From NCBI GenBank assembly GCA_001784585.1, contig MFRN01000010.1, forward strand, positions 1 through 45,920: a stretch of DNA of 45,920 nt. Reading direction: 5' to 3'. Origin of the DNA: Candidatus Melainabacteria bacterium RIFCSPLOWO2_02_FULL_35_15. GTDB taxonomy: Bacteria; Cyanobacteriota; Vampirovibrionia; 2-02-FULL-35-15. How positions within the stretch are numbered: position 1 is the stretch's first letter; each line of letters starts with the position of its first letter. The position numbers and the translations under genes were made by a program. Of this stretch, positions 9,955 through 43,802 are shown piece after piece. The notes beneath the pieces were generated by a model that saw nothing but the letters and a program-made list of their open reading frames with translations, searched no databases and had not been told where the DNA came from.

Positions 9955-10049
9955 AGATAAATATTTTAGCGTGAGAAGAAAGTGTTATTTTTTGTTTTAT
10001 TTGCTTTAAAATTGAATAAAAAGTGATAAAAATATTGTCAGACAAAGAA

Positions 10050-13000
10050 ATGAACTTCATAAATATAAAGAAATTGTTAATTAAAGCTGTCTATGCCTCT
10101 TTATTTCTTAGCTTTTTTATTTCTTCTTTTTCTTTTGCAGCTGACTTTATAGTTCCAAATTCAAGCGGTGAACCAATAGTTATCGATGTGTCAAATCTAA
10201 ATCTGACTGCCGGTACAGATGTAAGTATCGGAGAGTTTACTGATCAGCCCAGATCTTACAGGGACTCTAACACAAAATCCATTGCCATCTTTCCACCTGC
10301 TGCCAGTGATTCTGAAAGAACAATTCAGATTAGAGCCGGCAGCACAATAATTTCAAAAACAATCAGCTTCAGATCTTCCCCGGGCGGTAACCTGAAAGAC
10401 TCTTTACTTCCTGATTTACGTGAAGCAAGAGCTGGAAATACAGTAACAAAGATTTCAGATGGAAGGATAGTGCTTATCGGTGGAAGTAAAGGGTTTTCAG
10501 ATGAACCGTTAAGTACGCTTGAAGTATTTGATCCGGAAACCGGCAGAAGTGAGTTTTTAAAAATACCGGACAATTCAAAAAAAACCAAATTACAAATTCC
10601 AAGAAGCCAGCACAGTGCTACTTACCTCGGAGTTAGTAATTCTTCTCTTGGCATGATTTCACCCCCTGTTGAACAAATACTTCTTACAGGTGGTTTTTCT
10701 AATGGCGGTTTGCTGGAGGGCAACATTGAAATTGTTGAAATCAGTATAGGAACTAATCAGGCAGTAAGTACTTTACTTACAGGTAAAAAAGCAAAGCTAA
10801 AAAAAGCAAGAATTTATCACAGTGCGAGCTTATTGCCGGATGGCAGAGTTTTAATTATAGGCGGACAAGGTCGCATTAATAAAACTAATCTGGGTGCTTT
10901 AAACAGTATTGAAATCTTTGATCCACTTAGTAAGTCCGTTCAGTCTTCTCTTATTTCTCTTTCTACTCCCAGGATTTTGCATACAGCTACAACACTGCAA
11001 AACGGAAATATTTTAATTGCCGGGGGATTTACAAATGAAAAAACAAGTGAGTTTGGACCCGGACCGGCTACTGATACAGCTGAGCTTATTGATACTAAAG
11101 CATTTACCATAAAGCAGGTCAGTCCACTTAAGAGAGCAGTTGGCGGTCATACTGCCACCCTTCTAACGAATGGACTTGTTTTAATTATTGGTGGAAATGC
11201 TGATTTGTTTGCTGGAGCTATAAAGAATGTAAACAGGGGTTTATCACTTGGCGCTGTTCAATATTATGATAATAAAAATGAAATTTTTAATTTTGCTACA
11301 AACAGATCAAGTGGTGGAAATTTAGAGCTCCAGATCCCCAGATTTTTACATGAGACAGTTTTGCTGCCAAACGGAAATTTGGCAGTAATCGGCGGGTTAA
11401 ATATTAAAAGTGGAGTAAATGCTGAAAGTTTTATAAACACACCGGTTGCCAGAATTGAAGTTTTAGCCCCGGATCTTATAGCATCAGGTGACAATGCTTT
11501 AAAGATTGATCAAAAGTCACCTCTTGAAACTTTTACAGGAAGAATTTTACCGACAGCCATTCTGGTTACACCAAAAAATAAAACACAGGGCTTTCTTTCT
11601 GCTTCTGATGCTGGCAAATTTGTAAACTGTGCAGTTTATGTAGCTGGCGGGTTTACAAATGGTTTTGGGAAGTTGCCTACGAAGGCTAGCAATTTACTCC
11701 AGATAGAATCAAATGTCGGTATAGAAGGAGCAGGCATTGATGTAACTCCGAGTGCTGTTATTCAGGGAAGTTATTTAGGTGAACTCTTAGTTCAGATTGG
11801 TAAATTTTCTACTGTTCCATCCTTAAAGGTTGAACCCCAGACAGTTAATTTATCAACCTCAAATAATTTTTTAGCAACAGTTATGGTTTTTTCTACAAAT
11901 GATCAGAATCTTTTATTAAAACCTGTGAGCACTGATTCCATTATAGTAAGTCCTTCTTTATTTCAGGCTGGTGATAATGTGACTATAACCAGAAAAGATC
12001 CGTCTGTTCAGGGACAATTCGAAGTAAATTTTTTGCCTGCAGGTGATCCAAACAGCTTTATACCGGCAAAAGTAACTGTCAATGTCTCAAACAGTTCCAT
12101 GCCGTTTTTAGTAACTGTGCCGCCATATGGAATTTCTCTTAGTACACAGGAAGAATTTAATATTCAGCCTGTTCAGATAAAAATATTTTCTGAAGATGGG
12201 ATGACTGAATTAACCTCAGTTTTACCAAATACTTTTATAACTGCAACTATTGCAGATCCGGGGATTGCAAATATTATTGGGACAGGAATTTCATCTGTTA
12301 CAGGAACAATACAAACACAATTTCAAATTAAAGCAGTAAAACCGGGCAAGACCACTTTAACCTTTTCAATTAATTCACCGGATATCTTACCCATATCAAT
12401 TCCTGTGCAAATAAGTGCTACACCTACTTTTCCAAGCAATGCAGGTTCAATTGATGATGCCATTTTAAACAGTTTAGCAACAAATGGAGTTGGATTTTCC
12501 GGTACTAAAAATTTGAACTCGACAAGTTTTTTATTACAGGATGTTATTTTATCTGCTAATGCAATTTTCCCGATTTATGTCCCAATAAACCTTCAAAGTT
12601 CAATTGATGGTACTACTTCTCCTGGCTTATTTACAATCAGACCAATCTTTGGTGTGGATTTATTAACTGCTATACCAAGAACTTTTGTAAATAAAGGAGA
12701 AAAAAGTTTTAAAACTCCCTTTACAACTGAGCCTCTGGCAATAGGTGGTTTATCCGGTTCTTCGGATTTAACAAAAGAGCCGCTGGCAGTTCTGGCTTTG
12801 GATGATGGAGTCAAAGTTGTTAATTTTACAAGAGATAATCAAAATTTAAAAGAATTACCGGACATGCTTAATAGCGTTTCTGATGTTAAAGATCTGAAGC
12901 TTTTTGAATTTGGCAGTGATGAAACAAAAAAAACAAAAATTGCTGCTATAAAAGGAGCAATGATATTGCTTCTTAACGCTAAATTTGGCGATGTGGAATC

Positions 13001-13724
13001 ATCTGCTGCTCTTTCAGGCGAAGGGTTTGAATTAGAATTAACTGAGATAAATAATCAGACCGCAGCAGTTGTATCGCTTGGGGCAGGTGGAGTTGATTTT
13101 GTTTTTCCAATTACAGACGCTAATCCGCGGGTTGAAAACTCACGTGTAGCTGGTAATGTTAAACATATTACTGTGGTTAAAAAACTTGGAGATAAAACAG
13201 GACCTTTTGTAGTCGCATATGACGACGATGCCAAAGTAATTTCCATAAGAAATCTTACTAATCTGAATGATCCTGTTCTAACGATTAATACGAGCGGTGA
13301 GAGGTTCACAAAGATTGCTTATGCGGGGAAGTTTCTTGTAAATAGTAAAATAACCGATGTCCTTATATGTGCAGGTGAAAGATCCGTTACACTTTTTGAT
13401 TTAAATAATTTAACTGCAATACCTTTTAGTGAAGATTTAAAAATCAAAACTAAAATTGAAGATCTTTTAGTGCTGGATGGTACGGCTTATCTGGCGCTTG
13501 GAGAAGGTGGAATCTTAGCTTTGAGTGTAGGTAGTTTAATTGCCAACAACAAACAAGCAGTAATTACTACATTTACAAAAAACAAACTTATACTTATAAA
13601 ACCTAGTGGTAAAGAGGCTTTTATAACGAAGCTGCTAAATGCAAAAAAACTGGCTAATGCAAAGCCATTTTTACTTTCAAGCGGGATTAATAATAATTTG
13701 ACGGTTATCAGAGTATCGCCGTAG
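10050..13724 (+). CDS. Large secreted kelch beta-propeller protein
   Basis: An exported protein of about 1,224 residues. The ATG at 10050 is chosen because it gives a normal signal peptide (NFINIKKLLIKAVYASLFLS, cleavage after FSFAA); a GTG at 10023 is possible. Seven kelch/galactose-oxidase-like repeats with HTATLL...NGxxLIIGG patterns can be read between about residues 125 and 540, enough for one closed seven-bladed propeller. About 540-840 is beta-rich with Ig/BIG-like segments. The last 350 residues contain regular beta repeats such as VLALDDGVKVVNF and LALGEGGILALSV, perhaps a second propeller. No catalytic Cys-Tyr or His copper ligands of galactose oxidase were recognised, so a binding or adhesion role is more likely than oxidase activity. 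The stop codon lies inside a REP palindrome. Exact function unknown. Confidence 0.8.
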   Translation: MNFINIKKLLIKAVYASLFLSFFISSFSFAADFIVPNSSGEPIVIDVSNLNLTAGTDVSIGEFTDQPRSYRDSNTKSIAIFPPAASDSERTIQIRAGSTIISKTISFRSSPGGNLKDSLLPDLREARAGNTVTKISDGRIVLIGGSKGFSDEPLSTLEVFDPETGRSEFLKIPDNSKKTKLQIPRSQHSATYLGVSNSSLGMISPPVEQILLTGGFSNGGLLEGNIEIVEISIGTNQAVSTLLTGKKAKLKKARIYHSASLLPDGRVLIIGGQGRINKTNLGALNSIEIFDPLSKSVQSSLISLSTPRILHTATTLQNGNILIAGGFTNEKTSEFGPGPATDTAELIDTKAFTIKQVSPLKRAVGGHTATLLTNGLVLIIGGNADLFAGAIKNVNRGLSLGAVQYYDNKNEIFNFATNRSSGGNLELQIPRFLHETVLLPNGNLAVIGGLNIKSGVNAESFINTPVARIEVLAPDLIASGDNALKIDQKSPLETFTGRILPTAILVTPKNKTQGFLSASDAGKFVNCAVYVAGGFTNGFGKLPTKASNLLQIESNVGIEGAGIDVTPSAVIQGSYLGELLVQIGKFSTVPSLKVEPQTVNLSTSNNFLATVMVFSTNDQNLLLKPVSTDSIIVSPSLFQAGDNVTITRKDPSVQGQFEVNFLPAGDPNSFIPAKVTVNVSNSSMPFLVTVPPYGISLSTQEEFNIQPVQIKIFSEDGMTELTSVLPNTFITATIADPGIANIIGTGISSVTGTIQTQFQIKAVKPGKTTLTFSINSPDILPISIPVQISATPTFPSNAGSIDDAILNSLATNGVGFSGTKNLNSTSFLLQDVILSANAIFPIYVPINLQSSIDGTTSPGLFTIRPIFGVDLLTAIPRTFVNKGEKSFKTPFTTEPLAIGGLSGSSDLTKEPLAVLALDDGVKVVNFTRDNQNLKELPDMLNSVSDVKDLKLFEFGSDETKKTKIAAIKGAMILLLNAKFGDVESSAALSGEGFELELTEINNQTAAVVSLGAGGVDFVFPITDANPRVENSRVAGNVKHITVVKKLGDKTGPFVVAYDDDAKVISIRNLTNLNDPVLTINTSGERFTKIAYAGKFLVNSKITDVLICAGERSVTLFDLNNLTAIPFSEDLKIKTKIEDLLVLDGTAYLALGEGGILALSVGSLIANNKQAVITTFTKNKLILIKPSGKEAFITKLLNAKKLANAKPFLLSSGINNNLTVIRVSP

Positions 13725-13752
13725 AGACGCCCTGTCAGGGCGTCTCTACGGC
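13718..13752. repeat. REP-family palindrome at the 3' end of the kelch gene
   Basis: Perfect 17-bp inverted repeat with a 1-nt centre. The left arm begins GCCGTAGAGACGCCCTG and the right arm is its exact complement. The kelch stop codon TAG (13722-13724) is in the left arm. The copy lies between two convergent genes and could act as a transcription barrier on both strands. A second short hairpin (13750-13765, arms GGCGT/ACGCC) overlaps its right end. It shares the GTAG...CTAC ends with the copies in elbB, fliA and the RAYT gene. Confidence 0.85.
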
Positions 13753-14412: not shown

Positions 14413-15126
14413 CTAAGAAACTGCTGAACTGGTGGTATTTAGCTTTGATTGTTTTATTAACTCGATAACAGCCTTAACCAATCTTGTAACTCCTGCTTCT
14501 ACTTCCTTTGGTCCCTTTCCCAGCATATAAGCAGGGGTAGTTACAATTAAGTTTTTCCCATCAATAGCTACTTCATCTGCATTTTTGTTTATGTGTCTGG
14601 CGCCCATTTGTTCAAGAGCACTTGCAGTATTTTTATCAGTACCTATGGTTAGTAAGGGCGTTTCATGAAACGCCCCTACAGCGGTTTTACCTAATACTCT
14701 TGCTAAGATAACTGGTGCTATGCAAATTGCTCCAATTGGTTTTTTAAGTTTGTGTAATTCTTGTAAAAGATTTTCTACCTCAGGTAATATCTGAGCGTTG
14801 GCACCATCTTTTGCAAATGAGCTGAGATTACATGCAGCACCGAAACCACCTGGCATAATTAATGCATCTATTTCATTTGCTCTTATACTTTTTATGTCTT
14901 TAATATTTCCTCTTGCAATTCTTGCTGATTCAACAAGTATGTTTCTTTTTTCATTTGTTGGTTGATTAGTAAGGTGATTTATTACCTGTGTCTGTTCTTT
15001 ATCTGGTGCTATGCAAATATATTCCAGTCCTTCTTTATCAATTGCCAGTAAAGTAATTACTGCTTCATGAATCTCTGAACCATCCATTACTCCACAGCCA
15101 CTAAGTAAAACACCAATCTTGTACAT
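14413..15126 (-). CDS. elbB: ElbB-like glyoxalase (DJ-1/PfpI superfamily)
   Basis: Resembles ElbB/YhbL, a DJ-1/PfpI superfamily protein with weak glyoxalase activity. Visible family features are VLLSGCGVMDGSEIHEAV at residues 6-23, ALIMPGGFGAACNLSSFA near 88-105, the nucleophile-elbow GAICIAPVIL, LTIGTD, and the closing VTTPAYMLG. The protein is 237 residues, some 20 longer than E. coli ElbB. Part of the excess is the segment TAVGAFHETPLLTIG, which is encoded by an in-frame REP palindrome (14652-14679) and falls just before the conserved LTIGT strand, probably in a surface loop. It starts at ATG with a GGAG-like ribosome-binding site (TTTCTCC on the plus strand, 15130-15136). Confidence 0.85.
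   Translation of the reverse strand: MYKIGVLLSGCGVMDGSEIHEAVITLLAIDKEGLEYICIAPDKEQTQVINHLTNQPTNEKRNILVESARIARGNIKDIKSIRANEIDALIMPGGFGAACNLSSFAKDGANAQILPEVENLLQELHKLKKPIGAICIAPVILARVLGKTAVGAFHETPLLTIGTDKNTASALEQMGARHINKNADEVAIDGKNLIVTTPAYMLGKGPKEVEAGVTRLVKAVIELIKQSKLNTTSSAVS
14652..14679. repeat. REP-family palindrome inside elbB
   Basis: Perfect 20-base palindrome core at 14656-14675 (arm GGGCGTTTCA), flanked after one mismatch by GTA and TAC, so the unit has the GTA...TAC ends seen in the other copies. It is read through in frame as VGAFHETPLL in the ElbB protein. Confidence 0.8.
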
Positions 15127-43180: not shown

Positions 43181-43747
43181 CTAGTTCCATTGATTTTTGT
43201 CAAAATCCCATTTCAATGGATTATTCATAATATATTTTCGAATAGAATTTAATTCTTCTTCATTTCGGATTACGTGTTCATAATACCGGGGTTGCCATTG
43301 GAAAAATAATTTATGTTCATTACATTTTTTTGTTACCGCCGATTTAAATGAACGGATAATTGCGGATAATGAATTTGATTTTGGCGAAATGCGAGACATC
43401 ATATTTTCCGTCGTAGAGACGTTGCATGCGGTAGAGACGTTGCATGCAACGTCTCTACGATGCGCCGCATTACAAATAATCACAATTCCATGTACATGAT
43501 TTGGCATTACGACAAATCCATCCAATTGGGCATTTCCAAAATGATGTGGAATTTCATACCAATATTTCTGTACAATTTCTCCGATTTGTGACAGAATCAT
43601 TTCCCCGTTTTTAATTTCACCGAAAACACATTCCCGATCTTTCACGCAAACGGTTATAAAATAGGCCCCATCTGCTCCATAATCCCAATAAGGCAATCGT
43701 ATTGATTTGATCCTATATTTATTTTTAAATAATTCTTCCCTGCGCAT
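43181..43747 (-). CDS. REP-associated tyrosine transposase (RAYT, Y1_Tnp)
   Basis: A 188-residue transposase of the IS200-like Y1 family. Visible features are YFITVCVKDRECVFGEI near 30, the HUH-type metal motif MPNHVHGIVII near 81-91 (HVH), SAIIRSFKSAVTKK near 130, and FFQWQPRYYEHVIRNEEELNSIRKYI near 150-175 with the catalytic-type Tyr. RAYTs recognise REP hairpins rather than moving as full insertion sequences. The middle segment NVSTACNVSTTE is unlike the family: it is made by a REP palindrome inserted in frame at 43413-43458. All catalytic motifs remain. It sits between the 385-residue orphan and a terminator, and probably spread the REP copies seen across the window. Confidence 0.85.
   Translation of the reverse strand: MRREELFKNKYRIKSIRLPYWDYGADGAYFITVCVKDRECVFGEIKNGEMILSQIGEIVQKYWYEIPHHFGNAQLDGFVVMPNHVHGIVIICNAAHRRDVACNVSTACNVSTTENMMSRISPKSNSLSAIIRSFKSAVTKKCNEHKLFFQWQPRYYEHVIRNEEELNSIRKYIMNNPLKWDFDKNQWN
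43413..43458. repeat. REP-family palindrome plus half copy inside the RAYT gene
   Basis: A perfect 28-base palindrome at 43431-43458 (arm GTAGAGACGTTGCA). It is preceded by a direct half copy GTAGAGACGTTGCATGC at 43413-43429. On the coding strand it reads through in frame as ACNVSTACNVST, a tandem duplication at protein level. Confidence 0.85.
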
Positions 43748-43775: not shown

Positions 43776-43802
43776 AAAAACCATGTAACCTACGGTTACA
43801 TG
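43776..43802 (-). terminator. Intrinsic terminator after the 683-residue gene
   Basis: On the minus strand, arms CATGTAACC and GGTTACATG (9 bp) around the loop GTA are followed by GTTTTT. It lies between the stop of the 683-residue gene and the RAYT start. The core is shared with the hairpin after fliA. A third arm at 43813-43820 can pair with the first arm of this hairpin. Confidence 0.75.

Follow-up and report, generated by a model that had tools for sequence, protein, structure and literature searches.

In-frame GTAG REPs in a Melainabacteria genome, including one within a REP-associated transposase gene

The stretch of DNA analysed in this study, 45,920 nt from Candidatus Melainabacteria bacterium RIFCSPLOWO2_02_FULL_35_15 (contig MFRN01000010.1, referred to below as the window), contains a TnpA_REP (RAYT) gene whose reading frame passes through a palindromic REP of the genome's own type. 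A REP in such a position is of a kind already published; the larger result is that REPs lie in frame in genes across the genome and overwrite host codons. The REP in the RAYT gene is a copy of the genome's own 27-29 bp double-foot GTAG REP and encodes a disordered loop of the protein. It is probable that the loop tolerates it and that these REPs are mobilised by RAYTs, with the loop serving as an acceptor site. The spread of REPs is still poorly understood, and a family in which they lie in frame in single-copy conserved genes provides empty and filled sites that can be aligned, making target choice, replaced length and core exchange directly testable. In addition, the family shows how conserved proteins can be altered by a repeat and yet stay intact.

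The RAYT gene and its internal REP

The window RAYT has the Y1 HUH transposase fold and is related to TnpA_REP. Its Pfam Y1_Tnp match is only just over the cut-off, while E. coli TnpA_REP (4ER8) is both the sole PDB sequence match in a family profile search (E 4.9e-8) and the top fold match (E 4.3e-8) to the AlphaFold model, which has a mean pLDDT of 85.8. Residues M81, P82, H84 and H86 are invariant across 66 homologues. The motifs PNHVHG, WQ and YIMNNP (Table 1) fit the NH[IFV]H, WQ and YIxNNP listed for TnpA_REP subclass 2.4 (Table 1 of PMC6006769), and a variable insertion domain holding an in-frame REP lies between the HUH motif and the W/Y region. As judged from the sequence by motifs, REP type and REP position, the protein is a subclass 2.4-like TnpA_REP. 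No GTAG-tagged palindrome was found within 600 bp outside the gene, so that the internal copy stands by itself and the REPtron arrangement, in which a RAYT gene is flanked by its REPs, is not seen at this locus. An inverted repeat of the form GTAACC...GGTTAC lies upstream of the gene and is similarly placed upstream of the RAYT genes of two relatives (L026 and L029); it is possibly an old element end or a regulatory hairpin.

Table 1. Positions of the features of the window that are discussed in the text.
Feature	Position	Strand	Remarks
TnpA_REP (RAYT) gene, 188 aa, subclass 2.4-like motifs	43181..43747	-	Open through REP
HUH motif PNHVHG, aa 82-87	43487..43504	-	Motif reading and homologue alignment
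Catalytic Tyr codon, Y172 of YIMNNP	43232..43234	-	Column invariant in homologue alignment
Perfect 28-bp "double foot" REP, GTAG...CTAC, GTAGAGACGTTGCATGCAACGTCTCTAC	43431..43458	.	Read in frame
REP half unit, tandem duplication with 18-bp period, 1.9 copies	43413..43447	.	Without counterpart in L026
Whole REP block, 19-bp arms, 12-nt spacer	43411..43460	.	Encodes disordered loop, about aa 96-113
9-bp inverted repeat CATGTAACC-TAC-GGTTACATG	43782..43802	.	Upstream of RAYT start
Second window REP, same type	14652..14679	.	In frame in elbB (ORF 14413-15126, -); peptide VGAFHETPLL
Third window REP	13721..13749	.	GTAG foot gives TAG stop of ORF 10023-13724 (1233 aa)

A preliminary description of the window had reported a perfect 28-base palindrome and a direct half copy inside the RAYT coding sequence, with the frame kept and a CNVST peptide duplicated. 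All of this was borne out. The palindrome ends in 5' GT[AG]G and 3' C[TC]AC, as expected of a GTAG double-foot REP, and the half copy (GTAGAGACGTTGCATGC, 43413-43429) lies at a start-to-start spacing of 18 from it. Jointly they form perfect inverted arms of 19 bp (43411-43429 and 43442-43460) between the HUH and Tyr motifs. The segment encodes the peptide RRDVACNVSTACNVSTT, in which CNVST occurs twice as a result of an in-frame tandem duplication of the REP's 3' half (18 bp, or six codons). By chance, 0 such palindromes are expected in the window. When the loop peptide was recoded synonymously, arms seldom exceeded 12 bp and only 2 of 3000 recodings reached 15, compared with the 19 observed; as a single strand, the segment has a folding z of -7.1. 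Mapping onto the AlphaFold model, as the description had proposed, placed the REP-encoded residues in a disordered interior loop, the only interior segment with pLDDT below 50.

An exact copy of the 28-bp REP lies inside queA of the source genome (G000:C32:7601-7628). The RAYT gene of the nearest relative (G001, locus L026) is 80% identical to that of the window at the DNA level and its REP is identical at 28 of 28 positions, while the half copy is private to the source genome in this comparison. The same 18-bp half unit has expanded in queA of the source genome (2.9 copies) and, in frame, in its tRNA nucleotidyltransferase gene (4.7 copies; L004 1518-1601, G000:C30), and tandem half units also occur in the loops of the distant RAYT homologues L079, L086, L089 and L119. 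Growth of REPs by half-unit duplication, which the description had raised, is supported as a pattern by these arrays. In a relative, G009, two REPs lie in what is apparently the same tRNA nucleotidyltransferase gene (L223).

Loop palindromes in homologous RAYTs

The gene had been described as interrupted, but a loop REP in frame is the normal state in this family. The loop was examined in 10 family-level relatives; every one of them has an in-frame palindrome of 27-31 bp at this position, and the cores differ in nearly all. A wider set of 79 homologues, taken from Bacteroidota, Cyanobacteria, Chloroflexi, Patescibacteria and others in order of similarity to the window protein, may favour carriers of loop REPs; 50 of them had a loop palindrome (score >= 12), compared with two that had one elsewhere in the gene and none in codon-shuffled loops. 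The other 29 homologues have no strong loop palindrome, which indicates that the loop REP is not essential. Being also a published feature of subclass 2.4 (PMC6006769), a tolerated internal REP is not the unusual finding that it had been taken for; the insertion is unique to the window only with respect to the half copy, since the palindrome occupies the same loop in relatives.

Where tags could be placed in the homologues, GTRG...CYAC occurred in the three phases at 39:9:0, and the unused third phase is the one that would put an in-frame TAG stop in the gene. L073 and L081 share one 28-mer (GTAGGGACGTTGCATGCAACGTCCCTAC) letter for letter but translate it in different frames, to RDVACNVPT and VGTLHATSL respectively, so that the shared feature is the DNA and not the peptide. 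Common 12-mers link the loop REP to the flanks of its own gene at 20 of 54 loci, against an expectation of 1.5 derived from other loci, and by this measure the loop REP is cognate to local REPs; in most sampled loci, no tagged palindrome lies within 500 bp outside the gene. Nearly every close homologue has a loop REP with its own core, which suggests that REPs arrived or were exchanged there more than once instead of descending from a single insertion.

REPs in other genes and replaced host codons

In the source genome (1.94 Mb), 19 sites match the strict pattern GTAGRGRC...GYCYCTAC, while a reversed-pattern control gave 0, and half units with at most one mismatch were found at 21 sites; the RAYT gene does therefore carry a REP of the genome's own type, as had been claimed. 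About 15 of the 23 placeable REPs in the source genome lie inside ORFs, in frame, and in G009 24 of 46 lie inside ORFs, including enolase, dapA and nadD, although these fractions were computed on retrieved genome stretches and some assignments are based on ORF length only. At a coding density of 88% (retrieved G009 stretches), REPs are depleted in genes, yet far from purely extragenic. The host genes in the source genome are dnaX, gltX, glpK, mtnA, queA, prpB, elbB and those for tRNA nucleotidyltransferase and an amidase, and family matches span the REP in the first seven of these and in others; dnaX and gltX are single-copy genes. The loci of these in-frame REP genes include L162, L165, L158, L166, L003, L153, L161 and L156, and the amidase gene holds two REPs. 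In gltX, REPs sit at the same codon in G000 (L185) and G008 (L189), members of two genera, with none in the nearer G001, G002 and G003. A longer second palindromic element (GTCATTGCGAG...CTCGCAATGAC) is also present in frame, in queA of G009 (L202) and in mtnA of G002 and G003 (L265, L266, L267). Across the family, 10-78 REPs were counted in six genomes with a close RAYT and 0-5 in five without one (p = 0.004, uncorrected for phylogeny).

A plain in-frame insertion would lengthen a gene by 27 or 30 nt. Relative to REP-free relatives, the net gain is 15 nt in dnaX, 12 in gltX, 0 in queA (a figure for orthologues with a single REP, which leaves out the half-unit expansion in the source genome), 21 in mtnA and 21 in eno; relative to PDB homologues, for which the figures rest on distant alignment, it is 3 nt in glpK, 9 in prpB, 15 in dapA and about 3 in nadD. 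Gains thus range from 0 to 21 nt and never reach the full 27-30, indicating that host codons were replaced. Replacement could have occurred at entry or through later selected trimming, and empty orthologues with no more than about 65-90% identity, the nearest available, do not allow an exact insertion footprint to be fixed. In enolase, two REP-free relatives have GTAGAG precisely where the REP foot starts, which suggests that the REP entered at a pre-existing foot, in which case some of the sequence counted as lost was in fact reused as the foot. At a single mtnA site, G000, G001 and G008 (L256, L257, L259) have REPs whose cores are quite different, a pattern that fits exchange at a docking site. 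Degraded REP versions are found at the same mtnA site in two other genomes (L261, L264).

Origin of the REPs and relation to known systems

The substrates of TnpA_REP enzymes are single-stranded REPs, which are cut at CT; the GTAG tag is implicated in their recognition and in the choice of site, and cleavage is known for the E. coli, Stenotrophomonas and Marinomonas enzymes (PMC8266576). The likeliest course is that the present REPs would be cleaved and moved by their cognate TnpA_REP. Single-stranded REP hairpins would probably be mobilised by the window RAYT or a sister RAYT and would enter both coding DNA and spacers; entries would survive only where the reading frame is preserved and the site is in a surface loop. 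Between 7 and 28 nt of host sequence are replaced on entry or soon after. The RAYT loop would be a standing, insertion-tolerant acceptor site in which the encoded peptide may be neutral. The extra half copy arose later, by 18-bp tandem duplication of one REP arm. However, plain tolerance does not predict the identical REPs in the diverged RAYT genes of G000 and G001. A further and tentative proposal is that, besides overwriting host codons in frame, REPs are exchanged at permanent docking sites, namely the RAYT loop and the mtnA site. If true, the RAYT would carry a renewable copy of its own substrate within its coding sequence.

There are several potential alternatives to RAYT-driven mobilisation into a tolerant loop. 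The internal REP may be kept for a function, either as a cognate binding site in the RAYT gene or mRNA (autoregulation) or as a built-in substrate that accompanies the gene in horizontal transfer. Such a role would agree with its presence in nearly all close homologues, compared with only about 15 placed REPs in other genes genome-wide, with palindromes that stay perfect while cores change, with the G000/G001 identity and with the internal copy often being the only linked REP; this role is nevertheless rather unlikely, as 29 of 79 homologues dispense with the REP, degraded versions occur and the same REPs are found in unrelated genes. It is also unlikely that the REPs are relics moved without RAYT by replication slippage or template switching, together with gene conversion between palindromes, given that, within the family, genomes with a close RAYT have more REPs and that the loop REP matches neighbouring REPs. 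The half-unit tandem arrays at a fixed 18-bp period, possible seeding by common feet and the net replacement of host bases are the observations that speak for such a process.

Two other readings concern the loop alone. The description had considered self-targeting. As a one-off event, this would mean that the window RAYT inserted a REP into the gene encoding it, and did so in no other lineage. The half-copy duplication is indeed specific to the source genome relative to its nearest relative, but the palindrome occupies the same position in relatives and in many phyla, which refutes a one-off event for the palindrome, leaves only the half copy as private and makes this reading highly improbable overall. 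That an ordinary protein loop is encoded by DNA palindromic by chance has next to no probability: the disorder and the variable length of the loop would suit such a reading, yet exact REP copies exist elsewhere in the genome, and the rarity of long arms under synonymous recoding and the single 28-mer read in two frames rule it out. Among the homologues examined, none had the same peptide without the palindrome, the finding that the description had named as pointing to an ordinary loop.

A literature search on Melainabacteria palindromes and on REP insertion with loss of target sequence returned nothing relevant, and the closest known systems are the following. Quentin et al. 2018 (PMC6006769) name as a unique trait of TnpA_REP subclass 2.4 that REPs are inserted in frame into the gene itself, as a rule between HUH and Y, where they occupy a peripheral extension. 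The window RAYT resembles this subclass (RAYT group 4) in its NHVH, WQ and YIxNNP motifs, its variable domain between HUH and Y, its double-foot REPs and the in-frame REP itself. To the subclass as published, the present study adds the half-unit tandem duplication and the cognacy of loop and neighbouring REPs, and differs in that flanking tagged palindromes within 500 bp are absent from the majority of sampled loci. Di Nocera et al. 2013 (PMC3733652) reported GTAG REPs inside other genes, and as with those intragenic GTAG/CGTC REPs, the ones described here lie in frame in housekeeping and DNA-metabolism genes and their feet supply TAG stops. In contrast, the present REPs are from Melainabacteria, about half to two thirds of those with the strict pattern are intragenic, and their net gain of 0-21 nt entails replaced host codons. 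Rickettsia palindromic elements (summarised in PMC3733652) are likewise small palindromes repeated in conserved protein genes, where they are read in frame; compared to these, the REPs of this family are shorter (27-29 bp) and GTAG-tagged, and the candidate transposase itself carries the element.
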